Program-made: the position numbers and the translations under genes
NCBI GenBank assembly: GCA_015063225.1
Contig: SUSU01000005.1
Location: 1-64,000, forward strand
Direction: 5' to 3'
Length of the DNA: 64,000 nucleotides
Origin: Thermoplasmata archaeon
Lineage (GTDB): Archaea; Thermoplasmatota; Thermoplasmata; Methanomassiliicoccales; Methanomethylophilaceae
Shown here: positions 1 through 14,792 of the stretch, piece by piece
Position numbering within the stretch: the stretch's first letter is position 1
Layout of the letters: each line of letters opens with the position of its first letter
Notes under the pieces: model-generated
Databases searched by the model: none
Told to the model about the DNA's origin: nothing
The model's input: the letters and a program-made list of their open reading frames with translations, nothing else

Positions 1-930
1 ATGGTCATCTTCATCATCACTCTCAATCAATACATCTGCAAACACAACTTGTGCTTTTACATGTCCCTGATTTGCAGCTAACTCTATCCATCTTCTAAAT
101 AGCCCCTCATCCTGTTCAACTTTAACACCTTGTTTATAGAACATCGCCAAACGATATTGGGCATCAGACAGCCCCGATTTAGCTTGATCCAATACAACAT
201 CCAAGGAATCCATTGAGGCTTCGTGGTAAAGAGCACACACCTTTTTTGGCCTACCGTCTGCAACAATAGCGCCTTTATCAATCCACACAACACGAGTGCA
301 TAAGGATTCTACAGATCCAGGCGAATGAGACACGTACACTACAGTTTTGCCATCTTTCAAAATTTTTCTAAAATAATCTGAAGCTTTAGCAGAAAAAGTA
401 GCATCGCCCGTGCTCAATATTTCATCCACAAGCATAATTTCTGCATCAACATGGATCATTATGGAAAAGGCAAGTCTGCTTCTCATTCCAGAAGAATATG
501 TCCTCACAGGGTTGTCAATATAGCTCCCTATTCCCGAATAATCTATTATTTCGTCAATTTTTGATTCAATTTGCTTCTTCGAAAAACCATACAGTTCTCC
601 TTTTAAAACAATATTTTCCCTGCCAGATAAATCTGGGTGGAACCCCATACCCAATTCAAGTATTGCTGCGACCTTCCCATCTATGTTGACTGTTCCCGAA
701 TCTGGTTCCAATATTTTGGCCATTATGCTAAGAAGTGTTGATTTTCCTGCACCATTATTTCCGATAATTCCCAATATTTCCCCCTTTTTCACATCTAAAT
801 TTAATCCATCTAAAACGCGATTTTCGATTCTTGTTTTTCCCTTTTTCAATAACCCTTTCTTATTCCCATCACTATCCAAATAGTATGCAAGTGTAACATC
901 CCTCAATTCAATAGCATTATCTGGATTCAT
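1..930 (-). CDS. Polysaccharide-export ABC transporter ATPase with C-terminal Sel1 repeat (3' end outside window)
   Basis: This is the ATP-binding subunit of a Wzt/TagH-type exporter that would power movement of a lipid-linked glycan across the cytoplasmic membrane. Reading from ATG at 930, the 310 visible codons show Walker A GNNGAGKST, the signature YSSGMRSRLAFS and Walker B LVDEILSTGD. After the nucleotide-binding domain, the last roughly 55 visible residues form a Sel1-type helical repeat (SDAQYRLAMFYKQG, then WIELAANQGHVKAQ). The frame is open to the window edge, so the tail may contain more repeats. The permease partner starts from 1870 on the same strand, upstream. Wzt tails usually bind glycan through a beta-sandwich; a Sel1 tail here is unusual. 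The region is AT-rich compared with the rest of the window. Confidence 0.9.
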   Translation of the reverse strand, partial: MNPDNAIELRDVTLAYYLDSDGNKKGLLKKGKTRIENRVLDGLNLDVKKGEILGIIGNNGAGKSTLLSIMAKILEPDSGTVNIDGKVAAILELGMGFHPDLSGRENIVLKGELYGFSKKQIESKIDEIIDYSGIGSYIDNPVRTYSSGMRSRLAFSIMIHVDAEIMLVDEILSTGDATFSAKASDYFRKILKDGKTVVYVSHSPGSVESLCTRVVWIDKGAIVADGRPKKVCALYHEASMDSLDVVLDQAKSGLSDAQYRLAMFYKQGVKVEQDEGLFRRWIELAANQGHVKAQVVFADVLIESDDEDDH

Positions 931-1066
931 GTTTTCACCCGATTAGAACAATATTTTCGCCCGAATCTTTCAATTATAACGGATCACACGCCTGCAAGTG
1001 TTCGCTTTGCGTACATTAGAAACTGACATTTACTCTGTTAAATGTAATTTGCATTGGCATAATAAA

Positions 1067-1870
1067 TTATAGTCTTTTCACAAAACCACGTTTAAGTTTC
1101 TGAAATACTAAATAACCAACTAAAAGCATGGACACAGACAACAATGGGCACATCATTATGTAAATTGTACCTGGCATCTCAGCCCAATACAAAATATCAT
1201 GAACCCACTCAATATAATAGGTGAGTGGATTTAACCATATTACTTCCAATAAAATGCCCGTAGCATCAGATGCCATGTAACGCATAGGAGTCAATACAAA
1301 CAATGCAATGCCCATTGATCCAAGAGCGTACTGAATGTCCCTCACATAAACAGTCAGTGAAGAAAGAAGAAAAATGCAACCAACTCCAAAAATAAATGCT
1401 AATATCAACAAGGGAACTAATGTAAGGAGACAGACGATATCAATAGGATATCCCGTAATTACCAACGTAACCAGCACTATAAAATATCCGATTATGCAAA
1501 CAATCATTGCAGATATCGCATTTGCTAACACAAGAATTTCTTTTGGAAGATACATTTTTTTAATCATTCCAGCGTTCCCAGTAAATGCATTAGTGCCCCC
1601 AACTATACAACGAGTAAGAAAATGAAAAAGAAATATAGCTGTTGAAATAAAGACCCACCTATTTTCGATAGATGTGCTTGTTCTAATCTCTGTGAATATC
1701 ACATAATACATCAGCATCAAAATAAGTGGCGTTATAAAATTCCAAGCAAACCCCAGAACAGAGTTTCTATACTTGCCATATAAATTCTTAGCTACAAGCG
1801 AACGAAGAATGGTCCGGGAGTTATAAACCTCCATGATATCGTGCTTGAGTGATTCAAAAGCGCCCGTCAT
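1067..1870 (-). CDS. ABC-2 type polysaccharide exporter permease
   Basis: A 267-residue Wzm/TagG-family membrane subunit. It has the family's short amphipathic N-terminus followed by about six hydrophobic helices. It retains the typical N-terminal motif of this family (LVAKNLYGKYRNSVLGFAWN) and the C-terminal motif WLNPLTYYIEWVHDILYW. It lies upstream of the ATPase ending off the window, and the two would assemble into one exporter. The start ATG at 1870 fits the family length. The stop is TAA. It is not a close copy of the second permease at 11589-12368, so the window encodes two separate export systems. Confidence 0.9.
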   Translation of the reverse strand: MTGAFESLKHDIMEVYNSRTILRSLVAKNLYGKYRNSVLGFAWNFITPLILMLMYYVIFTEIRTSTSIENRWVFISTAIFLFHFLTRCIVGGTNAFTGNAGMIKKMYLPKEILVLANAISAMIVCIIGYFIVLVTLVITGYPIDIVCLLTLVPLLILAFIFGVGCIFLLSSLTVYVRDIQYALGSMGIALFVLTPMRYMASDATGILLEVIWLNPLTYYIEWVHDILYWAEMPGTIYIMMCPLLSVSMLLVGYLVFQKLKRGFVKRL

Positions 1871-2196
1871 CTAACATCACTATACAGTTTACTCATCAAC
1901 AGACCAATTAGCATTTCCGAAACCCCGCAAACAGGGCATCAGCAATATAACAAACTAAGAAGTGTGAATCATCCACTCTTTATTATCATTACTCTCACAA
2001 AAGACAACAATGATGATTGGATTATCTATTAAGAAAGGTGAGAATCCCAATAAATAGCATTTAGTCGTAGGAGCGTTTGACGAACACAATTACGAAAATC
2101 TTTACTAGACAATCTAATTCATTTAAAACAAATATAACAAACAATGTTTCATAAAACGTTCAAAACAATAGATACCGCGAATGGAGGTTGTTAACC
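1871..2196. other. AT-rich divergent intergenic region
   Basis: This 326-bp gap separates the minus-strand exporter from the plus-strand sugar-acid cassette and should carry promoters for both. No coding frame with convincing features was seen. A 10-bp motif, ACGTTCAAAA, at 2156-2165 sits 41 bp before the first cassette gene and recurs at 2752-2761, 52 bp before the cytidylyltransferase start. It may be a shared promoter element, but two occurrences in AT-rich DNA are weak evidence. Confidence 0.5.
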
Positions 2197-2646
2197 GTGA
2201 TCATTGATAGAATAGAAAAAGTAACGCAATATTGCCCCCCACCCTTTCAACCAATAGTTTCCAAGATTTTGTGCAATATTAATCAATTTGAGATTGGGGA
2301 GCATACAATCAATGAACGCATACTCGTAAAACACGTTGTTGTAAAAACTGTTCCAATTGATGAAGCAATCATAGAAGACCATAACCACCACATTGACATC
2401 CAGATTCCTTTAAACAACACAGAATTGATGAATATTTATAACAGAAACAATTCGAAATTGAAAACAAAATACGATTCCCTAAATGACGTTTCATACTACA
2501 AAACTCCAGGCGACATGATTGCATCTGCTCGCATCCTGCCAGGATACTTTATACTCATAGAACCCCATGAGATGCATCAACCTCAAATTGCCATAGGGCC
2601 CTCGTACACTTTAGATAAGATTGTGATAAAAATAGACCTGTCATGA
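2197..2646 (+). CDS. YhcH/YjgK/YiaL family protein (NanQ-like sugar anomerase candidate)
   Basis: A 149-residue cupin-like protein of the YhcH/YjgK/YiaL (DUF386) family. Family hallmarks are EDHNHHIDIQIPL in the middle and PGYFILIEPHEMHQPQIAIG near the end, where histidines and acidic residues line the metal-binding barrel. Characterised relatives include NanQ, which speeds anomerisation of N-acetylneuraminate. GTG at 2197 is preferred over TTG at 2188 because GGAGGT lies eight bases upstream and the resulting N-terminus matches the family. It opens a cassette with a CMP-sugar-acid cytidylyltransferase, which supports a role on a 2-keto sugar acid. The exact substrate cannot be read from sequence. 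Confidence 0.8.
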   Translation: MIIDRIEKVTQYCPPPFQPIVSKILCNINQFEIGEHTINERILVKHVVVKTVPIDEAIIEDHNHHIDIQIPLNNTELMNIYNRNNSKLKTKYDSLNDVSYYKTPGDMIASARILPGYFILIEPHEMHQPQIAIGPSYTLDKIVIKIDLS

Positions 2647-2803
2647 TGTCATCCAGAATTCATTGTCAATCAACCATCATGAACATATTGTGTACTTATG
2701 GAACGCCACCATGATTATTAGCTAATACCTTTCAAATGATGATGTTTAATTACGTTCAAAATCATATTATACCCAAATGTCTTGCTATGTCTGTGAGGTA
2801 TAA

Positions 2804-3466
2804 TTGTCTTCGAAAGTTGTGGCTTTGGTACCCATAAAACTCGGATCGAAAAGAGTTCCGAAAAAAAATATAAGGCCGTTCTACGACGGCACACCATTGA
2901 TGCACTTTATTCAACGCGCTTGCATCGATTCTCAGCTTATAGATGACATTTATGTCTACTGCTCAGATGAATCCATAAAAGACTATATTCTACCTGAAGT
3001 TCATTTCCTTAAACGCCCAGAGTATCTTGACGGCGATAACATCAATGCCAATGATATTATACGGGAATTCATGAAATCCGTCCCCGCAGATATTTACGTT
3101 AATGTCCATGCTACATCGCCTTTTGCAAAATCAACAACAATTGACAGCTGCATCCGCCACGTATCAAGTGGCGAATATGACAGTGCTTTCTGCGCAGAAT
3201 GCGTCAGAGCATTTATGTGGGAAAATAACAAACCAATTAACTTCGATCCAAGCCACTTCCCCCGCACACAGGATCTGCCAGACATATATGCCGAGACATC
3301 TATCGCATATGTCTTTACCCAAGAAACTTTTAACAAATACAACAGGCGTGTTGGAACCAACCCATTTATCCAAGTTGTTGATAAAATCGAAGCCATAGAT
3401 ATCGATTATCCTGAAGATTTTATCATTGCAGATGCCATTTACAAGGAGGTTATTAACAGATCATGA
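2804..3466 (+). CDS. Acylneuraminate/CMP-sugar-acid cytidylyltransferase
   Basis: This enzyme would activate a 2-keto sugar acid with CTP to give a CMP-sugar for glycosyl transfer. The 220 residues match the NeuA/KdsB family: N-terminal PIKLGSKRVPKKNIRPF is the nucleotide-binding loop, followed by NVHATSPFAKSTTIDSCI and a late DIDYPEDFIIADA motif. The start is TTG at 2804 with GAGGT just upstream; GTG at 2819 is an alternative. The stop codon overlaps the next gene by four bases. Whether the substrate is a sialic acid, legionaminic-type acid, Kdo or another ulosonate is not decided by sequence. No NeuB-type synthase is visible in the window. Confidence 0.85.
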   Translation: MSSKVVALVPIKLGSKRVPKKNIRPFYDGTPLMHFIQRACIDSQLIDDIYVYCSDESIKDYILPEVHFLKRPEYLDGDNINANDIIREFMKSVPADIYVNVHATSPFAKSTTIDSCIRHVSSGEYDSAFCAECVRAFMWENNKPINFDPSHFPRTQDLPDIYAETSIAYVFTQETFNKYNRRVGTNPFIQVVDKIEAIDIDYPEDFIIADAIYKEVINRS

Positions 3467-4491
3467 CAGTGCAAATTACCGACTGCACCATAAGAGATGG
3501 GGGGTATTTGATGAATAAAAACTTCAGCCCCGAATTCGTAAAATCAATCATGAAAAATCTTGCTGATGCAGGAATAAACTTCGTAGAAACAGGATTTTTA
3601 CAAACAAAAGTAAACGGCGAATCGATTGTATATCACAACTCCAAGGACGTCGTTAAATATCTCCCACTTGACAGAAAGAATACTCAATTTCTTGGTTTCT
3701 GCGATAACAGCAGATATTCGATTGATGATTTAGACGATTATAATGGACAATCCTTTAAATGGATGCGCATTTCCTTTGGAAAGCACGAAATCGACCCATC
3801 ATTACGTTTTTGTGCTGAAGCTCAAAAAAAAGGATATATAGTACAATTCAACCCAATGGACGCTATAGGATATTCAGATGAAGAATGGAAGTCACTGGTT
3901 TCAAAAGTCAACGAGGTTAAACCGGGCTCCTTTTCATTAGTCGACACATTTGGGGCAATGCACCTAAGTGACCTCATACACTTCTTTAAGATGACGGACG
4001 AGGTCTTGGATAAAGATATCAAAATTGGTCTCCACTCCCATGATAATCTTGGTCTCTCAAATGCTCTCGCCGAAACCATGATGATGCTGGCCGAAGAATC
4101 CGGAAGAGACATCATTGTTGACGGATCATTATTCGGAATGGGGCGCGGTGCAGGCAATGCCTCTACCGAACTGTTGGCTGATCTAATCAATAGAAAGTAT
4201 GGGGGTAATTACAACCTGCCACTTCTACTTGACACAATTAATGAATTCATCATCCCCCTTCGTGAATCGATTAATTGGGGCTATGACCTGCCAATGTTCA
4301 TTTGTGGCACCAAACGTGCACATGTGGATAATGTTTATCATCTCCAAAAAACCCACAATTGTTCAATTAGTGATATGTATGAGGTAATAAGCAACCTCTC
4401 ACCTTCAGATCGTACCAGGTATGGGAATCATTATTCAAAAACCGATTTTTCTGCTCTTGAGAAAGAATACGAAACGATCAAATCTAAGTGA
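3463..4491 (+). CDS. DRE-TIM (HMG-CoA lyase-like) aldolase
   Basis: A 342-residue TIM-barrel metalloenzyme of the family that includes 4-hydroxy-2-oxovalerate aldolase, homocitrate synthase and HMG-CoA lyase. It has the opening DCTIRDGG motif, the divalent-metal HxH motif in LHSHDNLGLSNA, and the glycine-rich GMGRGAGNASTELL segment. These enzymes form or break a carbon-carbon bond next to a keto acid such as pyruvate. It overlaps the cytidylyltransferase stop and runs directly into a TPP enzyme, so in this cassette it probably builds or trims the carbon skeleton of an activated sugar acid. That role is inferred from context. Confidence 0.8.
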   Translation: MTVQITDCTIRDGGYLMNKNFSPEFVKSIMKNLADAGINFVETGFLQTKVNGESIVYHNSKDVVKYLPLDRKNTQFLGFCDNSRYSIDDLDDYNGQSFKWMRISFGKHEIDPSLRFCAEAQKKGYIVQFNPMDAIGYSDEEWKSLVSKVNEVKPGSFSLVDTFGAMHLSDLIHFFKMTDEVLDKDIKIGLHSHDNLGLSNALAETMMMLAEESGRDIIVDGSLFGMGRGAGNASTELLADLINRKYGGNYNLPLLLDTINEFIIPLRESINWGYDLPMFICGTKRAHVDNVYHLQKTHNCSISDMYEVISNLSPSDRTRYGNHYSKTDFSALEKEYETIKSK

Positions 4492-4497
4492 GTTCAT

Positions 4498-6094
4498 ATG
4501 AATTGTGCAGACTATCTAGTTGATTTCCTAATATCCAAAGGAGTCACAGACATATTCGGTTATTCCGGCGGATACATAGTACCATTCATAGAAGCATTGT
4601 ACAACAGAAGAGATCAAATTACAACACACATATGCTACCACGAACAGGGTTGTGCTTTCGCCGCCAATGGTTTTGCACGCGCATCTGGGAGACTAGGGGT
4701 TTATTTTACAACATCTGGGCCTGGTGCAGTTAACGCATTTGGCGGATTAGCTGATGCGTGGTTCGACGGCATTCCAGTTATGGGGATATGTGGGAATGTA
4801 CCAACCCATGAGCAAAAAGGTTACTCGGGCATCCGTCAAAACGGATTCCAAGAAATGGACATCGTATCCATGACTAAACACATTACTAAATACTCAGTTA
4901 CTCCACTCAATGCAGAAGAATTCCCAGAAATCATTAATCGTGCATACAATCTTGCAATGATTGGCAGGCAAGGAGGTGTAATCATTGATTTTCCATTCAA
5001 CATCCAAAAAGCCGATTGTAATTGTAGGTAATGGTGTTAGAGAATCAGGAGCCGCAGATATTCTCCATGAATTCTACGAAAAAACCAAAATACCGGTTCT
5101 AACAACGATGAATGCTGTAGACCTCATGCAAGATGAATGGAAATTAGGATTCATTGGCACGTATGGACACCGCGTTGCCAACATGATTGTATCCCAATGC
5201 GATTTAGTTATAGCGATAGGCGCACGCCTTGGTCTTAGGCAAACTGGCAATAAAAAAGAATACTTCGCACCAAATGCTAAACTGATACGTGCAGATATTG
5301 ATCAGTCAGAACTCAGCAGAACAGTAAAGAATGATGAAGAGAAGTATCTTATTGATGCTAAAGAGTTCCTTTCAAAATTACTAGCTGAAAATATTCCCAC
5401 ATATTCCGAATGGAATTCAAAATGCTTCCAAGCCAAAGCAATTCTAAGCCCTTTTGACAAAGAACTTGGAAACTTATGTATTGAGTATATTTCCTCATTG
5501 TTACCGGATGATCCCCTTGTAGCAGTAGATATTGGTCAAAATCAATGTTGGGCCGCCCAATCCCTAACATTAAAAGGTAAAAACGGACGCATTCTTATCG
5601 GAGGCAGTTACGGATCCATGGGTTGTGGTTTACCTTATGCTATAGGCTCTTCGATTTATCTCAAAAAACAGCCTATTTATTGCATTACTGGAGATGGTGG
5701 ATTACAAATGAATATCCAAGAACTACAAACTGTAGCTTCTGAACAATTACCAATCAAAATATTTGTAATTAATAATAAAACGCTCGGCAAAATAACCGAA
5801 ATTCAAAGAGGCGGCTACAATGAACACTATCTGATAACTACCGAAAGTAGTGGATATGTCGCCCCGGATTTTGAAAAAATTTCAAATGCATATGGCATTA
5901 GATCAACTACTGTGTATTCGTATTTGGAATTAGAATCATTCAAAGACTGGTTGTATGATTTAGAACCTTGCTTATTCAACATCATATTGCCTGAAGCAAC
6001 ATGGCTATTACCAAAAATGAACTGGAATGAAAAAGAAATGCTCCCGCTCCTCGATTCGAATATTATGCAACAAGTAAAAGACATCCTTTCATGA
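4498..6094 (+). pseudogene. Acetolactate-synthase-like TPP enzyme, frameshifted at the domain linker
   Basis: The protein family condenses a 2-keto acid through thiamine diphosphate. The first frame (from ATG 4498, 177 codons) is the pyrimidine-binding domain with catalytic glutamate in CYHEQGCAFAANGFARASG. The second frame (ending 6094) holds the central domain, from KPIVIVGNGVRESG, and the diphosphate-binding domain with GDGGLQMNIQ and INNKTLG. They meet at the A5 run 5006-5010, where a one-base shift joins FNIQ directly to KPIVIVG. In known family members this boundary is a linker of roughly 40 residues, which is missing here. Either a small out-of-frame deletion has broken the gene, or the assembly is wrong. 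Flanking cassette genes are intact. Confidence 0.75.
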
Positions 6095-6103
6095 GGACAG
6101 TAA

Positions 6104-6592
6104 ATGCGCATCAAACTACTAGTCATGGATGTTGACGGCACCCTAACGGATGGTAAAATCCATATGGGACAATCAGGAGAATTATTCAAAACATTCGACA
6201 TCAAAGATGGCTATGGGATTTATTCTCTATTGAAAAAATATGATATTATACCCGCCATAATAACTGGTAGATTCTCAGATATTGTGTTAAACAGATGTAG
6301 TGAACTGGGCATTACTGAGATATACCAAGGATGTACAGATAAAATTCAACCATTGTACAATCTTGCTACAAAATATAACCTTATGATTGACAAATATGGC
6401 ATTATTAAGGGTTGTGCGTATATCGGCGATGATCTTATTGATTTGCCATGCATGGAAAAATGCGAACTAACCGCGTGCCCCGCAGACGCGGTCCAAGAAA
6501 TACGTAGCATAGCTAACTATGTCTGTAAAACCAATGGCGGCAACGGTGCTGTACGTGAATTCATCGAATGGATTATCGACAACAATGACTAA
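6104..6592 (+). CDS. KdsC-like HAD phosphatase
   Basis: A 162-residue member of the haloacid dehalogenase C0 group, like KdsC and the phosphatase domains attached to some NeuA enzymes. It removes phosphate from an 8- or 9-phosphorylated sugar acid before CMP activation. Visible motifs are DVDGTLTDG near residue 9, IITGR in the middle and the late GDDLIDLPCMEKC. It has no cap insertion, which is normal for tetrameric KdsC enzymes. It starts ten bases after the TPP enzyme with GAGGA upstream. It supports the view that the cassette makes a phosphorylated ulosonic-type acid. Confidence 0.85.
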   Translation: MRIKLLVMDVDGTLTDGKIHMGQSGELFKTFDIKDGYGIYSLLKKYDIIPAIITGRFSDIVLNRCSELGITEIYQGCTDKIQPLYNLATKYNLMIDKYGIIKGCAYIGDDLIDLPCMEKCELTACPADAVQEIRSIANYVCKTNGGNGAVREFIEWIIDNND

Positions 6593-6637
6593 CTACTTAT
6601 GAGACTATCTAATAATCAAATAAAAGGAATTGAAAGA

Positions 6638-7678
6638 TTAACGTTCCATTTTAGATCTGATCGTTCTCTTAATGTCTGTTATAGGATCAACATTCAATGG
6701 ATCGACATTTCTATTAACTGCAACAAAGAAAGATAGATGGTCCCCGAACATAATCGAATAAACCATCCTCTCAAGAAGAGTATCCCCCTTAATGTCCACG
6801 ACAATCGGGGACAATCCCTTCTTCTTCATGACCTCGACAGTGGAATCCACCAGCTTGCAGATGTCCTTGTCCATATAATCCCTGAGGATGATGGGCAAGA
6901 ACAACTCCCTGTGTGAATCCTCATACCACCCCACAATCTCATTGTGGTTGAACTCGGGCATCACGCCGGAGAAAGCAATCAATTTGGAATTCTCGTTCAG
7001 CTGGTTCTTCAGTCTCACCGCAACGGCATCCATATCCGGAGTACCGTACACGACGGGGATCCTCGCACCGGAGGAACAGCACTCCTTCGTTACCTCATCC
7101 GCAATCCAATGAGTGTACGAATCATCAAGCTCCATATGCTCCATAGATGCTTGCAGCCACGGCAGCATCCTCCTGAGCTGATACCTTATGCCGGGACCTC
7201 CGGCATCCTCGATGATCCCGCCGACGATACCGATGAACCATCCGATGGCGGAACGGGGTTGTATCTTCTCCCCGCCGATCTTCACAAGTATATTCCCGTT
7301 CTCATGAGCGAGTCTCTCGAGCTCCCCACCATAGGTAACGACAACGGTATCGATACCCATGCCCATGGCCTTGTTGTACAGCTCGATGGTCTCGAAGGTG
7401 TTCCCACTATAGGAACACGCAACAAACAGCGTATCGTCCCCGACCCACGCGGGCAGGGCCATCGTCTTGGCGACGGAAACGTCGACAGGACAGCTGTAGT
7501 ACATGGAATCCCTGTAAACTGCACCTCCTATCGCGGACGCACCCATACCGGCAAGGATGATGTGCTTGTAGTCCTTGTTAATCCCAGAGACAACGTTCAA
7601 TCCGGCCTCGAGATCATCCACAAACCCGTGGACCTCCTCATACATGCCATTCAGCGATTCGGTAGCGTACTGTCCCAT
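6638..7678 (-). CDS. Bifunctional phosphoglucose/phosphomannose isomerase family protein
   Basis: A 346-residue SIS-fold enzyme that interconverts fructose 6-phosphate with glucose 6-phosphate and/or mannose 6-phosphate. It shows the SIS entry motif GMGASAIGG (about residue 45), the phosphate-binding serine cluster CSYSGNTFET and PEFNHNEIVGW, whose histidine and glutamate belong to the active site. Base composition is nearer the GC-rich genome than the preceding cassette. It is transcribed towards the cassette, separated by 45 bp. It supplies hexose phosphates for the surrounding glycan genes. Which of the two isomerase activities predominates is uncertain. Confidence 0.88.
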   Translation of the reverse strand: MGQYATESLNGMYEEVHGFVDDLEAGLNVVSGINKDYKHIILAGMGASAIGGAVYRDSMYYSCPVDVSVAKTMALPAWVGDDTLFVACSYSGNTFETIELYNKAMGMGIDTVVVTYGGELERLAHENGNILVKIGGEKIQPRSAIGWFIGIVGGIIEDAGGPGIRYQLRRMLPWLQASMEHMELDDSYTHWIADEVTKECCSSGARIPVVYGTPDMDAVAVRLKNQLNENSKLIAFSGVMPEFNHNEIVGWYEDSHRELFLPIILRDYMDKDICKLVDSTVEVMKKKGLSPIVVDIKGDTLLERMVYSIMFGDHLSFFVAVNRNVDPLNVDPITDIKRTIRSKMER

Positions 7679-7820
7679 GAAGGAGACTCTCCAATACTCT
7701 CAGTATTTTCTTTCACTATAATAATAGTCCTCATATCAGAAATGACAACATTTTACACATCACAATAAGTGTAAACCCATAATCCAAACCCCCATCGATA
7801 CTCCGAAACAATAACAGGCG

Positions 7821-9398
7821 ATGTCTGAAATACCACCACCAGGATTCACATCCGTGGCCGAGGAACAGGATTCCGAATCACTCCAATTCACCGAAGGAAT
7901 CATATCGTCCAGGGAATCCTCCGTCGATGCCATCATCCATCCCGCCGGGAAGGAACCCGACCGCATCGACGACCTCAGGGCCAAACTCTACATCCTCAAG
8001 GACGCCCTCAGGACCAAAGGCTTCAAGGGGTTCGTGGACTGCGGCTACAACGCCGTCATGAGCATGATCGGCCGCAAGGACCTCCTCCCTCCGGAACAGA
8101 AACCAGAGGAGAATGAAGAAGAAGTCCCGGATATCGAGGGGGACATCGACAAAGCCATCCAATCCTCCCACCCTTGCGATTCAAATATCCGCATCCTCGA
8201 CATCGTCAACTACATGATCTGCCCCCCCGTATCCGGCGGGATGCTCAGGGTCCTCGCCCCCCTGGAAAAAATACCGAAGGACAGCGGCATCACCATCGAC
8301 ATGGTGTTCGGCACCTGGGGCGCACAGTACGCCAGATCCTGCGAGGACTATCTCAACCGCATACCCGTGATCGGCCTCTCCAAGGGAGTCGTGGTTCCCC
8401 TCTACACCAAGGACCTCCCGGGTATCCCCGAGGACCTCCCCAAGGACGTGTGGATCACCGTATCCAAAGTACTCTTAGACTATGCCGTCACCCTCGTATC
8501 CAAGGAGAAGTACGACATCATCCAGATAGAGCACTCCCAGCTCTCATGGATGGTTCCCGCTCTCCGTATGGCATCCCCCTCCTCCAAGATTGTTCTCGAC
8601 GCCCACAACGCCGAATACAGGGTGTTCGAGACCTGGCTCCCCCATACCACAGAGAAGGACCGTAGGGAGATTGAATCAAACTATCAGAAGATGAAAGCCT
8701 GGGAATCCAGGGTGTGGGGCTGGTACGATGCCGCCTTCACCGTCTCCCCGGTCGAGGAGGACCTCCTCCGCGCCGCAGGCGTGGAGGACGTCTGTCTCGT
8801 CCCCACTGGGGGCGGCATCGACCCCGCTAAGTACGCCCCCGTCCCCGGTATCGAGAAGAGATACGACATCCTCTACATCGGGAGCATGAACTGGTTCCCC
8901 AACTACCACGGCCTCAAATGGTTCCTCAGGGAGGTCTATCCCATCATCGTCTCCAGGAGGCCCGGCACCGACTTCCACATCGTCGGCAACGGTACGCCTG
9001 ACAAGGAACTCCTCAGGATAGTGTCCAAGGTCAAGGGGGTCAAGTTCTGGGGCTTCCAGGAAGACGATGTGCAGTTCTTCCACACCTCCAGGGTGTTCGT
9101 CGTCCCCCTCTGGATCGGCGCAGGTGCCAGGGTGAAGATTCCCACAGCCTGGGCCGCGGGAATCCCCATCGTGTCCACCGTCTTCGGGGCCGAGGGCCTT
9201 CCCGCCGAGGACGGGAGGAACATGTTCCTCACCGACTCCCCCGAGACCTTCGCCGAGGATGTCATCTCCCTCCTCAACAATCAGGAACTCTCCGACAGGA
9301 TATCACAGAACGCACTCGAGACCCTCCGCGGCAATTACACCACGGAGATCTGCGCCGAGAAACTGGTGAAGGACTACAAGGAGATCGCGAAGCATTAA
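7821..9398 (+). CDS. GT4-family glycosyltransferase with long N-terminal extension
   Basis: A 525-residue GT-B glycosyltransferase. The GT4 core begins near residue 118 (NIRILDIVNYMICPPVSGG). It contains LDAHNAEYRVFE, DILYIGSMNWFPNYHGL, and the donor-binding region WIGAGARVKIPTAWAAGIPIVST. The first roughly 115 residues are acidic and low in predicted structure except for a helical stretch, and match no domain recognised here. The gene is divergent from the isomerase and converges on a paralogue whose stop codon overlaps its own at 9395-9398. Donor and acceptor sugars are unknown. Confidence 0.88.
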   Translation: MSEIPPPGFTSVAEEQDSESLQFTEGIISSRESSVDAIIHPAGKEPDRIDDLRAKLYILKDALRTKGFKGFVDCGYNAVMSMIGRKDLLPPEQKPEENEEEVPDIEGDIDKAIQSSHPCDSNIRILDIVNYMICPPVSGGMLRVLAPLEKIPKDSGITIDMVFGTWGAQYARSCEDYLNRIPVIGLSKGVVVPLYTKDLPGIPEDLPKDVWITVSKVLLDYAVTLVSKEKYDIIQIEHSQLSWMVPALRMASPSSKIVLDAHNAEYRVFETWLPHTTEKDRREIESNYQKMKAWESRVWGWYDAAFTVSPVEEDLLRAAGVEDVCLVPTGGGIDPAKYAPVPGIEKRYDILYIGSMNWFPNYHGLKWFLREVYPIIVSRRPGTDFHIVGNGTPDKELLRIVSKVKGVKFWGFQEDDVQFFHTSRVFVVPLWIGAGARVKIPTAWAAGIPIVSTVFGAEGLPAEDGRNMFLTDSPETFAEDVISLLNNQELSDRISQNALETLRGNYTTEICAEKLVKDYKEIAKH

Positions 9399-10798
9399 GC
9401 CCTCTTCCTTCCCGCGATGTCGTAGTAGCAATCCGTTATCGGCCGGGCGCACCTGTCCAGGGAATAGTGCTCCAGAACGGTTTCGAAAGCGTTCTCCGCG
9501 ATCCTCTTCCCCTCCTCCGGATCGTCCAGCAACCTCAATACGGCGGAGGCGAACCCCTCCGGGGTATCCTCCAGAAGGATGTTCTCCCCGGGCACCGTCT
9601 CGGCACCCTCCGCTCCGAACACTGTAGAAACCACAGGAACCTTCGCGCACCACGCGGTGGGGATCTTCACCCTCGCGCCCGCCCCTATCCACAGGGGCAC
9701 CACGAACACCTTCGCCCTGTGGAAGAACTGCACATCATCATCCTGGAAACCCCAGAAACGGACGTTCCCGTTCCTCCTGCACAATGAAATCAGATCAGCA
9801 TCCGGGATCCCGTTACCCACTATGTGCAGGACGGCCGACGGCTTCTTCTCCACTATCAGGGGCAGGACCTCCCTGATGAACCACTCCAGACCGTGGCAGT
9901 TCGGGAACCAGTTCATGCTCCCGATGTAGAGCATGTCGTAATCCTTCTCATGCTCCTCCTTGGGACAGTACTTCTCCGGGTCCATCCCGCCGCCGGTGGG
10001 CACCTGATAGACACGGGGGACCTTCGCATTGCAGAGGATGCCCGCCTCCATCTTCGACACGGCGAAAGCCGCATCATGCCACGGGAAGCAATCCGTCTCC
10101 CACACCCACATGGACTCCATGTTCCTCTGCACGGCCTTCCTCTGCCTCCCCTCGGCATAGGGGAGCCAGGTACGGAAGATCCTGTACTCTATGTTGTGGG
10201 CGTCCAGCACCAGCTTGGATGAAGGGGAAGCAGCCCTCAGCAGGGGGGTCATCCACGCCAGCTGCGAATGTTCGATCTGGATGATGTCGTACCTCTCACG
10301 GGAAACCAGATCCAGGACGTAATCCATCAGGGCGGGGCTCATGGTGGCCCACACCTCCTCCGGGATGCCCTCAGGGATACTGCCGTGGTGGGAGAGGTAG
10401 TTCTCGGCCACCAATCCCTTGGCGAACCTCACCACGGGGAGTCTCATGAGATACTCCTCGCAATCCCTCGCGTACTCCTTCCCCCAGGTGGAGAACACGA
10501 AATCCACCGAGATCCCGTCCTCAGGGGACATCCTCGTCAGGGGGTTGATTATCCTCAGGCTCCCGCCAGAGGTGGGGGGACAGTTGATGTAGTACGAGAT
10601 GTCGAGGACCCTGATGCACCCCTCCGGGACCGGAGGGACCGACTCGGTCTCCTCCCTGGACCCCTCCTGGGAGTCAACCCTGCGGTTCAGGAACTTCTTG
10701 GCGACGGCCATGGCCTCCCTGATGCCCTGTGCCCTCACTATGCCTATGAAATCCGATACCTTCTCCCTGTAGAACCCGAACTTGCCGGAACCCTTCAC
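9395..10798 (-). CDS. GT4-family glycosyltransferase, paralogue of the preceding gene
   Basis: A 467-residue GT-B enzyme that aligns with the 7821-9398 product over its whole core: CIRVLDISYYINCPPTSGG, LDAHNIEYRIFRTWLPY, DMLYIGSMNWFPNCHGLEW and WIGAGARVKIPTAWCAKVPVVST. Its N-terminal extension is shorter, about 75 residues. GTG at 10798 is chosen because no other start exists in frame before the upstream ABC ATPase. It is the last gene of a minus-strand set after a permease and ATPase, so it may decorate the glycan handled by that exporter. The tail-to-tail paralogue pair suggests inverted duplication. Confidence 0.88.
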   Translation of the reverse strand: MKGSGKFGFYREKVSDFIGIVRAQGIREAMAVAKKFLNRRVDSQEGSREETESVPPVPEGCIRVLDISYYINCPPTSGGSLRIINPLTRMSPEDGISVDFVFSTWGKEYARDCEEYLMRLPVVRFAKGLVAENYLSHHGSIPEGIPEEVWATMSPALMDYVLDLVSRERYDIIQIEHSQLAWMTPLLRAASPSSKLVLDAHNIEYRIFRTWLPYAEGRQRKAVQRNMESMWVWETDCFPWHDAAFAVSKMEAGILCNAKVPRVYQVPTGGGMDPEKYCPKEEHEKDYDMLYIGSMNWFPNCHGLEWFIREVLPLIVEKKPSAVLHIVGNGIPDADLISLCRRNGNVRFWGFQDDDVQFFHRAKVFVVPLWIGAGARVKIPTAWCAKVPVVSTVFGAEGAETVPGENILLEDTPEGFASAVLRLLDDPEEGKRIAENAFETVLEHYSLDRCARPITDCYYDIAGRKRA

Positions 10799-10848
10799 GG
10801 AGTCCCTGGAACGGACGGCCTCCTCCAGGGCGATGGGTTCCCGGGAGG

Positions 10849-11589
10849 TCAGTCGCCTCCCCCCAGCATCTCCTCGGTGTAGGCGTCACAGACCTCGCCG
10901 CATTCCCCGTACATGCGTATCTTACCGCTGTCGAGCCAGATGGCGTTGTCGCAGATCTCCTTTGCTTGACTTGGAGTCTGCGTCACCAACACGATGGTGA
11001 CCCCCTGCTCCTTCAATTCCCTGATTCTGTCGAGGCACTTCTTCTGGAACGCTATATCCCCGACGGAGAGGATCTCATCAATGACTAGCAGATCGGCATC
11101 CACGTTGATAGCGATCGAAAAGGCGAGCCTCATGTACATGCCCGAGGAGTAATCCCTCACCCTCTCGTGTATGTGGTCCCTGATCTCGGAGAAGTCGATG
11201 ATGGCGTCCAGCCTCTTGTCCACTTCTTTCTCATCCAATCCGAAGATGGAGGCGTTGATGTAGATGTTCTCCAACCCGGACATGTCGGGGTGGAAACCGG
11301 CCCCGAGCTCGATCAGACAGGAGACCCTTCCCTTGGTCTCCACGGTACCGCTGTTGGGCCTGATGATCCTTGTCAGCAGTTTCAGGATCGTACTCTTCCC
11401 GGAGCCGTTCCTCCCTATGATACCAAGCGCCTCGCCCTTCTTCACGCTGAAAGAGACACCATCGAGGACCAATCTCCCCTTGGGCTTCCCGCTCTTGTGG
11501 TAGACCACCCTCTCCTTGAGGGAGGCGTTGCTGTGGGTGCCGTAGACCTTGCGGACGTCGCGCACCTCGACGATGTTCCCGTCCTCCAT
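10849..11589 (-). CDS. Polysaccharide-export ABC transporter ATPase (Wzt/RfbB-like)
   Basis: A 246-residue nucleotide-binding subunit with Walker A GRNGSGKST, signature YSSGMYMRLAFS and Walker B LVIDEILSVGD. The ATG at 11589 overlaps the permease stop codon (ATGA), showing translational coupling. It ends shortly after the ATPase core without the long C-terminal glycan-binding or Sel1 domain, unlike the first-island ATPase at 1-930. The glycosyltransferase gene follows after 50 bp. Together they form a compact export unit for a surface glycan or teichoic-acid-like polymer. Confidence 0.92.
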   Translation of the reverse strand: MEDGNIVEVRDVRKVYGTHSNASLKERVVYHKSGKPKGRLVLDGVSFSVKKGEALGIIGRNGSGKSTILKLLTRIIRPNSGTVETKGRVSCLIELGAGFHPDMSGLENIYINASIFGLDEKEVDKRLDAIIDFSEIRDHIHERVRDYSSGMYMRLAFSIAINVDADLLVIDEILSVGDIAFQKKCLDRIRELKEQGVTIVLVTQTPSQAKEICDNAIWLDSGKIRMYGECGEVCDAYTEEMLGGGD

Positions 11590-12368
11590 CAGAGCACCTC
11601 CGCGAAGTCGGGGGAGTAGCGGTCGTAGACCAACACTCCCACGAGGAAGGTGAACAGCGCGATGGATATCGAGGTCAGCAGCGTCCACCCGGAGGGGATC
11701 TGCATCCAGTAGAGCGCGTCCTGGAAGATCTCGATGAAGTACGTGAGGGGATTGAGGCTCAGGAGTTGCTGGAAGAGATGGTTGTCCACGAAGTCCCTGA
11801 CGTACATGATGGGGGTGAGCCAGATCCACACCATGACCAATACGTTGACGAGATACTGCACATCCCTCATGTACACGTTCGCCGCGGAAAGGATCAGAGC
11901 CATCCCAAGACAGAACACAAGGAGGATGAGCATCGCACCGGGCAGGAACAGCACGGCCCAGGAGAACCCGTGACCGCACACCCCTATGACGATGAGCGCA
12001 ATCGCGATGGATATGACGAAATTCACGAACTTCGACAGCACCACCGAGATGGGGATGACAGCCCTGGGGAAGTAGATCTTCGTGATGAGCTGGGAGTTCT
12101 CCACCACCGAACCCGCCCCTCCGACCATGGAATCGCAGATCATGAACCACGGCACCATGCCCACGATGAGGTACGCATAGTAATCCTCCAGGTCCTGGCG
12201 GAAGATGATGGTGAACACCATCAGGTAAACGAGTATCTGCATCAGGGGGAGGACGAAGTTCCAGATGAACCCCAGGACGGACCCCTTGTAACGGCCCCTC
12301 ACCTCCCTCTTCACGAGATTGCGAATCATCGCACGGTAAACGAACGATTCGCGCAGAGACTCGAGCAT
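11589..12368 (-). CDS. ABC-2 type polysaccharide exporter permease
   Basis: A 259-residue membrane subunit with six predicted helices and the family motifs MIRNLVKREVRGRYKGSVLG near the N-terminus and LNPLTYFIEIFQDALYW near the C-terminus. ATG at 12368 is chosen; an upstream start at 12452 would add 28 residues rich in arginine and aromatic amino acids with no family counterpart. It overlaps the ATPase gene by one codon register and would form the transporter channel with it. Confidence 0.9.
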   Translation of the reverse strand: MLESLRESFVYRAMIRNLVKREVRGRYKGSVLGFIWNFVLPLMQILVYLMVFTIIFRQDLEDYYAYLIVGMVPWFMICDSMVGGAGSVVENSQLITKIYFPRAVIPISVVLSKFVNFVISIAIALIVIGVCGHGFSWAVLFLPGAMLILLVFCLGMALILSAANVYMRDVQYLVNVLVMVWIWLTPIMYVRDFVDNHLFQQLLSLNPLTYFIEIFQDALYWMQIPSGWTLLTSISIALFTFLVGVLVYDRYSPDFAEVL

Positions 12369-12521
12369 AGGGGAAGGATATCCGCGGCTACTAAAAAAGT
12401 TTCCACGCGCGCGCATACGCAAGGGATGAATCATCCAATGCCATAAGCACACATGTGCCAGAGATCATTCCAAAGCGCAATGTATTACAACAAACTGCGT
12501 AAGCGACACCCGTGGAGAGGT

Positions 12522-13613
12522 TCATTCGGGACCTTTCACGAACAGCTTCCTCGCGGGCTTCAGTCTCGGGAACAGGTATTCCACAATCAGGTACGAAACC
12601 ACCGCGAACGCGATGATTATCACGAACGCCTCGGGCTCCCTGCCGTAGAACCATCCCCCTCCGAACCACAGGGGGAAGGAGAGGATGATTATCATGTGCG
12701 TGAGGTACAGCGGGAGGCTGATGTTCCCCAGGAAGGAGGCCACCTTCCCGCACTCGATGTTCCAGGTGATGTCGCTGTACACCAGGGTGACCAGAACGGC
12801 GAACAGGAAGAACACCGTCGAGGAGGAATCATAGAACCTGTCGCCGTTGATGTAGATCACAAGCAAAACGAAACAGAGTATCTCCGCGAGGAGGATCACA
12901 ACCTTCCCCAATATGGTCAGGTCGTAGTGTCTCCTCAGCCACATCGCCACGCTGTAACAAACCGCCCCTATCGCCATCTCGCCTATCGCCCTCAGCATCC
13001 CCATGGGCAGTCCCCAGGGGGCCTCGGTGGTCAGGGTGATGGTGTGGACGGTGAGGTTCATGAACCCGAGGATGAAGACCCCCATCAGCGGGAACAGGAT
13101 GCGCTTGGCATAGGAGTTGAACCTGATGTAGATGGGTGCCAGTATGAGCATCCCGAGGAACATGGCGGAGAGGTACCACATGATGCCGAGATACATGGGG
13201 GTGTCCGCACCCATCCCTGCCATGTTGGCGAAGAACATGTACGGCAGGAGGTTGACAGCATCCATCACGGCATCCAGGGGATTGTACTCGCGGTAGCGGA
13301 GAGCATAGAACGCGATGACAACAATCGTCACGTAAATGACGTAGGGGTAGATCCTCTTGACCTTCTTCAGCACCATGTCGAAGGCGGACTTCGCGTAATC
13401 CCCCTGCATGTCGGAGAGATGCCTCTCGATGCTCTGAGCCATCAGCAGACCGGTGACGATGAAGAAGAACTCCACACCGTAGTGTCCGAACTTGAAGTAA
13501 CCGAGATCGGAGACCCCGTTGAGGTGGACCCCCACGATGCAAATGGCGAAGAAGAACCTGAGCACCTCGATGGTGCCGTTCTTGGAGGATTTCTTCACGG
13601 GCTCCCCTGTCAT
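12522..13613 (-). CDS. Acyltransferase family 3 (OafA-like) membrane protein
   Basis: A 363-residue multi-pass membrane protein of the AT3 family, which moves acetyl or other acyl groups onto exported sugars. The N-terminal IEVLRFFFAICIVGVHL segment has the catalytic histidine typical of this family, followed by GVEFFFIVTGLLMA. About ten hydrophobic segments follow. ATG at 13613 is preferred; an in-frame ATG at 13667 would add residues unlike the family. It stands next to the glycan-export operon and probably acylates its product. The acyl donor and target are not determined. Confidence 0.85.
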   Translation of the reverse strand: MTGEPVKKSSKNGTIEVLRFFFAICIVGVHLNGVSDLGYFKFGHYGVEFFFIVTGLLMAQSIERHLSDMQGDYAKSAFDMVLKKVKRIYPYVIYVTIVVIAFYALRYREYNPLDAVMDAVNLLPYMFFANMAGMGADTPMYLGIMWYLSAMFLGMLILAPIYIRFNSYAKRILFPLMGVFILGFMNLTVHTITLTTEAPWGLPMGMLRAIGEMAIGAVCYSVAMWLRRHYDLTILGKVVILLAEILCFVLLVIYINGDRFYDSSSTVFFLFAVLVTLVYSDITWNIECGKVASFLGNISLPLYLTHMIIILSFPLWFGGGWFYGREPEAFVIIIAFAVVSYLIVEYLFPRLKPARKLFVKGPE

Positions 13614-13670
13614 CGCATGTGAATGGATGCAGGAGTATAAGATTGTGAAGTGCCGGACCCTGCCCACGGC

Positions 13671-14708
13671 TCACGCACGCCTGTACCTCGCGGACCTCGT
13701 GGTGCCTATCTTCACGATCCTGCCCTCATTGAGCATCCTGGACAGCACGGCTTCGACGGTGCTGGGGGACACGTCCACCAGCATCTCGCATATCTCCCTC
13801 TTGGATATGGGGACTAGGGATTCCAACACGACGGACTCTATCCTCTCGGTCTTGCTGTTCTTCCTGGGAACGGCGGATATCCTCCGCCTGTCGAGGTCCG
13901 TCACGCAGCTGTTCAGGACGTCCATGAAATAACCTATGAACGGAACGTAATCGTTCCTGTTCTCGTGCCATCCCTCCGACGAGGCTTTGAGCACATCGTA
14001 GTATCTGTCCTTGGTCGCGTTTATCGCAGATTCGATGGATACGTATCTCTGTATGCTAATTCCGTGACGGTACAGCAGCAGATCCGTCAGGAGCCTCGAC
14101 ATCCTACCGTTGCCGTCGCTGAACGGATGTATGCAGAGGAAATCGAGAATCACGCAGGGTATGAGCAGCATGGGATCGATTTCGGGATTCCCGCACGCCT
14201 CCCTGTACGCGTTGACGAGAGCCTGTACATTCTCCTCGGTCTCGATCGCCGGGACAGGGAGCCATCTAATCGTCTCCTCTCCCCCGGTCCTGTCGACGAT
14301 GATGTTATCCGTAACCTTGAACGACCCGCCTCCTCCGATGCGCTCATACATGGCCTTATGCAGCCCGCATATGGTGATGTCATCGAACGGAAGCTCGTGC
14401 CAGTTCTTATGAATCAGCTCCAATGCATCCCTGTATCCTGAGATGGCGTTCTCGTCGTGTCCCACAGGTTCCGTATTGTGGAGAACTATCCCACGTATAC
14501 GTTCATCAGTGGACCCTATCCCCTCGATCGCATTGCTCCATTTCACGGATTCGATGGAAGCTATCGACATCAGCCTTGAGAACAAAACGGCATTGTTCGA
14601 GATCAGTCCATCCAGCCTATCGTTCAGGGAAATGACCCTGCGCGCGGAACCGAACAGCTTCGAAGGCAGGGAAAGATTCTCGATGAATCCGTAATCGTAT
14701 GTTCTCAT
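13671..14708 (-). CDS. Fic-domain protein with N-terminal inhibitory motif and C-terminal winged helix
   Basis: A 345-residue Fic enzyme, expected to transfer AMP or a related group from a nucleotide to a protein side chain. The catalytic loop HPFSDGNGRMSR (about 194-205) is intact. The self-inhibition motif SNAIEG (about 58-63) is also intact, so activity is probably held off until released. The C-terminal 75 residues look like a winged helix (ISKREICEMLVDVSPSTVEAVLSRMLNEGRI). ATG at 14708 is chosen because a TATA box at 14730-14738 would place the transcription start at about that base. Four iterated motifs surround this promoter, suggesting autoregulation. Confidence 0.9.
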   Translation of the reverse strand: MRTYDYGFIENLSLPSKLFGSARRVISLNDRLDGLISNNAVLFSRLMSIASIESVKWSNAIEGIGSTDERIRGIVLHNTEPVGHDENAISGYRDALELIHKNWHELPFDDITICGLHKAMYERIGGGGSFKVTDNIIVDRTGGEETIRWLPVPAIETEENVQALVNAYREACGNPEIDPMLLIPCVILDFLCIHPFSDGNGRMSRLLTDLLLYRHGISIQRYVSIESAINATKDRYYDVLKASSEGWHENRNDYVPFIGYFMDVLNSCVTDLDRRRISAVPRKNSKTERIESVVLESLVPISKREICEMLVDVSPSTVEAVLSRMLNEGRIVKIGTTRSARYRRA

Positions 14709-14714
14709 GTATTC

Positions 14715-14792
14715 AATATGCATATTATAGAATATAAAATATGCATATTATTTGTAGAATATGCAGATTATAAACACCAAAATATGCAGATT
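14715..14792 (-). promoter_or_regulatory. Fic promoter with four iterated operator-like motifs
   Basis: Four copies of AATATGCA(T/G)ATT(A) begin at 14715, 14738, 14758 and 14781, spaced 23, 20 and 23 bp, about two helical turns. Read on the minus strand, the TATA-like sequence TTTATATTC (14738-14730) lies between the first two copies and about 26 bp before ATG 14708. A protein bound to these sites would cover the promoter. The Fic protein's own winged-helix domain is a candidate. Confidence 0.65.

Follow-up and report, generated by a model that had tools for sequence, protein, structure and literature searches.

How might a cell make an activated acidic sugar if its genome carries neither NeuB nor KdsA? 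The question is raised by a gene cassette near the start of a stretch of 64,000 nt (positions 1–64,000 of the forward strand of contig SUSU01000005.1, assembly GCA_015063225.1; here called the window) from a Thermoplasmata archaeon of the Methanomethylophilaceae. The source genome is G000 and the contig C30; L and G numbers denote loci and genomes in our comparison sets. The cassette (Table 1) consists of genes for a YhcH/DUF386 protein, a cytidine monophosphate (CMP)-sugar-acid cytidylyltransferase, a DRE-TIM aldolase, a thiamine diphosphate (ThDP) enzyme divided over two open reading frames (ORFs) and a KdsC-like phosphatase. We propose, with a probability of about 0.5, that the genes of this island lead, independently of NeuB/KdsA, to a CMP-activated 3-deoxy-2-ulosonic acid, similar to sialic acid or 3-deoxy-D-manno-octulosonic acid (Kdo), for a surface glycan, and that a two-gene YerE-like carboligase takes part in it. 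The gene identities, their contiguity and conservation, the split with its translation signals, and the absence of NeuB and KdsA are direct observations.

Scoring of the gene calls with Pfam and NCBIfam profiles placed all of these genes in the families that the original prediction had given them, and the start that it had chosen for yhcH (GTG at 2197, after GGAGG) is preferable to the TTG at 2188 called by the program. The genes are tightly packed: those for the cytidylyltransferase and the aldolase overlap by 4 nt, a gap of 6 nt separates the aldolase gene from ThDP ORF1, ORF1 and ORF2 overlap by 47 nt, and 9 nt lie between ORF2 and kdsC. The yhcH gene stands 157 nt upstream of the remaining cassette. 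With a profile built from nine orthologues, the nearest solved structures of the cytidylyltransferase are NeuA/CMP-sialate synthetases (9t4z, 2e-22; 1qwj, 2e-19); the protein thus belongs to the CMP-acyl/nonulosonate cytidylyltransferases at the family level and falls short of the PseF equivalog cut-off. The nearest solved structures of the phosphatase are KdsC proteins (2e-39, sequence profile). A phosphatase in the set implies that an intermediate is phosphorylated, as is the case in the Kdo and sialic acid pathways.

The synthases that define those pathways are missing. Neither NeuB (PF03102) nor the KdsA/DAHP family (PF00793) was found in G000 by searches that were positive in control genomes, and two NeuB proteins and E. 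coli KdsA used as queries had no match in the window or in 141 comparison loci, although the positive control worked. By its enzymes, then, the cassette is neither a NeuB-type nonulosonic acid pathway nor a KdsA-type Kdo pathway. The original prediction had noted that the window lacks such a synthase and had named one lying just outside it as a fatal finding; none was found in the genome, although window position 1 is where the contig ends. It had also proposed to look for the gene set in other genomes and to see whether NeuB is always absent from them. As to the set itself, five ORFs in the order cytidylyltransferase, aldolase, tppN (ORF1), tppC (ORF2), kdsC are contiguous in the window and at L014, L016, L120 and L122, and L121 has kdsC before tppN, which makes five further genomes. 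As to NeuB, it is not always absent: among seven cassette genomes, NeuB matched strongly in G063 and G524, on contigs other than those of the cassette, and weakly in G062, and it was not found in G000, G061, G190 and G598. We conclude that the cassette does not depend on a NeuB nearby, and that four of the seven carriers seem to be without any, as far as incomplete assemblies can show.

Which enzyme could then form the ulosonic acid? The aldolase had been described as HMG-CoA-lyase-like, but its NCBIfam scores and profile matches bring it closer to 4-hydroxy-2-oxovalerate aldolases. Its best NCBIfam relative is 4-hydroxy-2-oxovalerate aldolase, at scores well under the family cut-offs (85.1 bits against 229, and 77.7 against 286), and its profile matches are 3dxi (5e-34) and DmpG-type aldolases. 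Orthologues in six loci are 55–71% identical to it. Residues R11, D12, H191 and H193 align with DmpG and are invariant among the relatives; in 4-hydroxy-2-oxovalerate aldolases we take the Asp and the HxH motif to be the metal site and the Arg to belong to the active site. The predicted structure of a longer relative, from L028, also best matches 3dxi and DmpG-type aldolases in a structural alignment over residues 1–300.

Other members of this aldolase family are built differently. Long aldolases of 520–560 residues, at L028:8010–9614 and about 60 other loci, carry an extra C-terminal domain of about 200 residues that the window aldolase lacks. This domain has no confident Pfam match, and a sequence profile of it brought up no solved structure as a clear relative (best E 0.054); a D-lyxose isomerase match (22.2 bits, cut-off 20.8) was taken as chance. 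At L130:4467–7667, a protein of 1066 residues combines an HMGL-like aldolase domain with a family 2 glycosyltransferase domain; its neighbours are a full-length ThDP enzyme and a transketolase-like pair. Another pairing of aldolase and ThDP enzyme occurs on a Desulfobaculum plasmid (L010:5837–10005), where the aldolase gene comes after rfbH and the two genes of a transketolase. Phage records gave a single weak aldolase match, and plasmid matches were set aside as catabolic aldolases or partial relatives.

The company that the aldolase keeps bears on its role. A contig scan gave the best 80 of at least 571 loci, mostly from Lachnospiraceae and several ended by contig ends; 78 of these had a clustered aldolase and were scored for partners within 3.5 kb, with Fisher p values that ignore relatedness. 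A CMP-transferase gene was present in 44 of the 78 neighbourhoods, kdsC in 30, a ThDP enzyme in 25 and RfbF/G/H-like genes in 21. KdsC goes with the CMP-transferase (24/30, p = 0.001), whereas the ThDP enzyme avoids it (3/25, p = 5e-8): 41 loci have the CMP-transferase without a ThDP enzyme, 22 the reverse, and only three have both. Those three (L014, L016 and L025) all hold the split ThDP enzyme, the pair at L025 lying in separate gene groups. These counts reveal two lives of the aldolase family, one with a CMP-transferase and KdsC and one with YerE-like enzymes, and the window cassette joins them. The first fits an aldolase that makes an ulosonate. Use of the genes in an unrelated amino-acid pathway, which would have undermined the earlier proposal, was not seen.

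The second life would fit a different division of labour, by analogy with ErwE. The YerE-like enzyme ErwE takes 4-hydroxy-2-oxo acids, the products of this type of aldolase, as donors, according to a review (PMC12247030). The aldolase could likewise supply hydroxy-keto acids to the ThDP enzyme, which would decarboxylate them and transfer the remainder, and the pair would branch a CMP sugar acid derived from uptake or from an unrecognised synthase. We consider this unlikely. The 22 loci in which aldolase homologues lie by full-length YerE-like enzymes without a CMP-transferase speak for it, as do the RfbF/G/H-like genes at 12 of the 25 ThDP loci; however, the larger class of 41 loci pairs the aldolase with a CMP-transferase where there is no ThDP enzyme to feed, so that the aldolase cannot be a donor maker there, and the PF03102 and PF00793 searches found no other ulosonate synthase in G000.

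We therefore return to the aldolase as the ulosonate-forming enzyme, in a scheme whose single reactions, reaction order, product and division of labour we infer. The aldolase would add pyruvate enolate to a phosphorylated sugar aldehyde (or ketone) to give a 4-hydroxy-2-oxo acid phosphate, and would in this way stand in for the NeuB/KdsA step, which uses phosphoenolpyruvate (PEP). The KdsC-like enzyme would take off the phosphate, and the YhcH protein, where present, may speed anomer exchange. The PseF/NeuA-like enzyme would form the CMP sugar, which a GT52/POLYST-type transferase would then use. The PYR subunit and the subunit with the middle and PP domains would assemble into one carboligase that decarboxylates a 2-oxo acid, probably pyruvate, and transfers the acyl unit to a carbonyl group, either of the precursor or of the product; this could happen before or after CMP activation, and the sugar would probably be C-branched or chain-extended.

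The ThDP enzyme had been predicted as an acetolactate-synthase-like enzyme from one gene. Instead, Pfam and NCBIfam profiles assign the PYR domain and the middle and PP domains to two ORFs in different frames, and a linker of about 29 residues is missing relative to acetolactate synthase. The same split is present in 11 genomes (G000, L014, L015, L016, L025, G190, G524, G598, G852, G1305 and G1552), which include archaea, Bacteroidota, Spirochaetota and Lachnospirales/Clostridia; by genome set, with repeats shared between sets, the counts were 4/10, 2/393, 4/392, 1/139, 1/250 and 4/391. A search of viral contigs with ORF2 gave no match. ORF2 of the other split copies is 53–72% identical to that of the window, whereas the next relatives, at 37–43%, are full length (frames of 569–597 residues). 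ORF1 is 72–85% identical in eight other copies. In a tree that took in nine of the 11 split copies, all nine fall into a single clade (support 1.0), next to which stands the full-length enzyme from L074, and the window copy groups with L122. At L074:3204–4493, this nearest full-length enzyme is followed by a protein that joins CTP_transf_like and Gfo/Idh/MocA oxidoreductase domains.

If the gene were simply broken, by mutation or by sequencing error, two ORFs in place of the one seen in relatives would be expected, and one copy has indeed decayed: L015 has lost its cytidylyltransferase and the N-terminus of its aldolase, and its ORF2 is interrupted. Yet the identical split recurs in the 11 genomes, with both halves open in ten. 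The catalytic Glu (Glu49 of ORF1) and the GDG...NN motif are invariant. Nonsynonymous divergence (dN) is low, 0.07–0.18 for ORF1 and 0.19–0.40 for ORF2, with synonymous divergence (dS) saturated for most pairs, and both halves are under purifying selection. A broken gene is therefore extremely improbable.

The translation signals are conserved as well. In ten of the 11 copies, ORF1 ends at a conserved TAA and ORF2 starts with TTG in the +1 frame. All 11 read Gly-Gly-Val where all 29 full-length copies scored read Gly-Pro-Val or Gly-Pro-Ala (29 of 34 copies had a recognised motif; five were left out), and this Pro-to-Gly change creates a Shine-Dalgarno (S-D) site before the TTG start in the ten. 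S-D strength is −8.3 to −12.9 kcal/mol in the ten TTG copies and −1.5 to −12.0 in full-length copies, most of which are weaker than −5. Since the full-length L088 copy scores −12.0 kcal/mol at this place, a strong S-D site does not by itself tell the two classes apart; the combination of Gly-Gly-Val, TTG and split does. The exception is L120, where ORF2 lies in a different frame and has an ATG start, its own GGAGGTG (−10.6 kcal/mol) and an ATGA overlap.

These signals also bear on whether the two ORFs yield one protein by programmed +1 frameshifting. The +1 frame of ORF2 and the conserved overlap in ten of the 11 copies would suit such a mechanism, but the copies have no common slippery run (CAAAAAGCC, CAAAAGGCC, CAGCAGGCC), the 8-nt spacing between S-D site and TTG suits initiation, and a joined product would be some 29 residues short, lacking the linker and first helix. 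The S-D/TTG arrangement in ten copies, together with the ATGA start of L120, indicates separate initiation and argues against frameshifting, which we judge very unlikely. Predicted alone, the ORF2 structure has a predicted local distance difference test (pLDDT) score of 90.8, and its best fold match is the YerE-like carboligase JanthE (8rpj, 9e-30). JanthE also gives the best sequence-profile match (8rph, 2e-58), with the acetohydroxyacid synthase 5ahk nearly as close (5e-58). From sequence and predicted fold, we regard the ThDP enzyme as a putative YerE-like carboligase that is naturally split, rather than a frameshift error; it differs from its YerE-like relatives in not being a single PYR-M-PP polypeptide.

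Split ThDP genes also occur in other settings. At L025:1137–4546 and L151:4636–8914 the enzyme is accompanied by an IspD-like cytidylyltransferase and a HisC-like aminotransferase, and at L123:7500–11782 by the IspD-like enzyme and, in place of the aminotransferase, a short-chain dehydrogenase/reductase (SDR); LicD-like genes are present at L123 and L151. This context suggests a cytidine diphosphate (CDP)-linked amino or deoxy polyol. The set of aminotransferase, CTP transferase and ThDP enzyme at L025 also brought phosphonate chemistry into consideration. A further split copy, at L150, lies beside an SDR-like frame in a locus ended by the contig end.

How well does the proposed route stand overall? 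The idea of a pathway to a CMP-activated acidic sugar without NeuB or KdsA is supported by the NeuA-like and KdsC-like nearest structures, the contiguity in five other genomes, the 44 of 78 neighbourhoods with a CMP-transferase, the absence of both synthases from all 141 loci, and two cassettes flanked by GT52/POLYST-type (sialyl/polysialyltransferase-like) genes: one adjoins kdsC at L016, and one lies two genes upstream of the cytidylyltransferase gene at L122. Several observations weigh against the full scheme proposed here. No POLYST gene was found in G000, and two cassette genomes carry NeuB on another contig. Tyr15 of the aldolase, invariant in 8/8 aldolases compared, aligns with the DmpG His following RDG, presumably the catalytic base, so that the chemistry of the aldolase may differ. 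At L025, L151 and L123 the split ThDP enzyme stands by the IspD-like CTP transferase and without the aldolase, so that it need not act on ulosonic acids. The yhcH gene is not conserved.

The YhcH protein had been counted in the pathway as a NanQ-like anomerase candidate. It scores 47.6 bits against a cut-off of 160 for NanQ (NF040884) and clearly belongs to the DUF386 family itself. We do not place it in the conserved core: yhcH lies near the aldolase gene at only two other loci, where a KdsC-type phosphatase is fused in frame to it (L015:10597–11412 and L043:9832–10575). This fusion links YhcH to ulosonate phosphate metabolism, and an accessory role as a sugar-acid mutarotase is possible.

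Does the cassette belong to the archaeon? G000 (1.46 Mb, 39 contigs, 91.5% complete) encodes methyl-coenzyme M reductase and is therefore a methanogenic archaeon. Its contig begins with the AT-rich stretch that holds the cassette, window position 1 being the contig end, and G+C content is 36–42% over positions 1–6600, 50–61% just downstream and about 57% across the whole window. This AT-rich island is either horizontally acquired or part of a chimeric contig, and the assignment to an archaeon depends on a single contig, the AT-rich end of which could have been misjoined. If the first 6.6 kb were a bacterial fragment, the cassette would be real but not this methanogen's. Besides the base composition and the contig end, this is favoured by the absence of the split ThDP enzyme from all 249 other genomes of the class and by its nearest copy, which is from Lachnospirales (72% identity). 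Horizontal transfer, however, also yields polysaccharide islands of low G+C content; G013, of the same genus, has an adjacent cytidylyltransferase (46% identity) and aldolase (38%), which indicates that the genus uses related cassettes; and the junction falls between convergent genes with no reading frame visibly broken. On balance, we think a misjoin improbable, though one to be reckoned with.

Table 1 Features of the AT-rich start of the window
Feature	Position (nt)	Strand	Evidence
ABC transporter ATPase (Wzt-like)	1..930	-	ABC_tran 78 bits; frame open to contig end
ABC-2 permease (Wzm-like)	1067..1870	-	ABC2_membrane 47 bits; weak match to galactan-export Wzm; AT-rich like the cassette
YhcH/YjgK/YiaL (DUF386)	2197..2646	+	PF04074 81 bits, cut-off 26.5
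CMP-sugar-acid cytidylyltransferase (PseF/NeuA-like)	2804..3466	+	CTP_transf_3 71 bits; PseF 85 bits against cut-off 206
DRE-TIM (HMGL-like) class II pyruvate aldolase, short form	3463..4491	+	HMGL-like 81 bits
ThDP enzyme subunit 1, PYR domain (tppN, ORF1)	4498..5031	+	TPP_enzyme_N 122 bits
Shine-Dalgarno site AAGGAGGT for ORF2	4970..4977	+	Within ORF1 codons Gly-Gly-Val; anti-S-D duplex -12.7 kcal/mol
ThDP enzyme subunit 2, middle and PP domains (tppC, ORF2), TTG start	4985..6094	+	TPP_enzyme_M 107 bits, TPP_enzyme_C 105 bits; acetolactate-synthase-like
KdsC-like haloacid dehalogenase (HAD) phosphatase	6104..6592	+	TIGR01670 157.7 bits, above cut-off 107

The ATP-binding cassette (ABC) transporter ATPase at the contig end is possibly part of an exporter of the cassette's own glycan. 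The G+C-rich region that adjoins the island (window 6638–14723) is a resident polysaccharide locus, with genes for a phosphoglucose/phosphomannose isomerase, a pair of similar glycosyltransferases, another ABC exporter, an acyltransferase and a Fic protein.

The families of the cassette enzymes are all known; what is new is the way they are combined, and the split. A literature search that covered few subscription journals found no description of the cassette or of a split (two-gene) YerE-like enzyme. More broadly, and more tentatively than for the window itself, there may be a third way to CMP-ulosonic acids, in which a DRE-TIM pyruvate aldolase that depends on a metal takes the place of NeuB/KdsA in gut bacteria and archaea alike, and to which one sub-lineage has added the split carboligase, yielding C-branched or acyl-extended sialic-like acids unseen in any glycan. 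Genomes are screened for sialic acids and Kdo by way of NeuB and KdsA; if the aldolase can replace these, acidic sialic-like sugars may be made even where both genes are lacking, and the set of aldolase, CMP-transferase and KdsC, found here mostly in gut Lachnospirales, would be a marker for them. As a relative of YerE with two chains, the split ThDP enzyme would be of use in biocatalysis; its copies beside LicD and IspD-like genes suggest a second, CDP-linked product. The L120 copy, for its part, shows the move of a start site after a gene split.

Among known systems, the sialic, legionaminic and pseudaminic acid and Kdo pathways likewise combine a NeuA/PseF-type CMP-transferase and a KdsC-type phosphatase in one operon, and the POLYST/GT52-type genes near two homologous cassettes extend the likeness; they differ in relying on a PEP-dependent synthase, in place of which the cassette has a DRE-TIM aldolase and a ThDP enzyme. 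The best characterised relatives of the aldolase by profile and fold are DmpG, BphI and MhpE, whose RDG and HxH motifs it keeps, whereas its sub-threshold NCBIfam scores, Tyr for His and sugar-acid gene neighbours set it apart. The closest solved sequence, 3DXI (BVU_2661, a putative aldolase of Bacteroides vulgatus), has the RDGGY motif in common with it, but is the N-terminal domain of a longer protein according to the entry title, and the entry assigns no function. The nearest solved structures to the ThDP enzyme, by sequence profile and by fold, are among the YerE-like carboligases of C-branched sugars (YerE, ErwE, JanthE), and relatives pair the aldolase and a YerE-like enzyme with RfbF/G/H-like genes; the window enzyme, in contrast, comes from two genes, one of them for the PYR domain alone, and adjoins CMP-sugar-acid genes with no RfbF/G/H among the annotated flanking ORFs. 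The split itself has a parallel in the split-gene transketolase of Carboxydothermus (PMC7661550), which has PYR and PP domains on separate chains from adjacent genes, lacks the linker, and is active only when both chains are together. That enzyme belongs to the transketolase family, whereas the window enzyme belongs to the acetolactate-synthase/YerE family and carries its middle domain on the PP chain.

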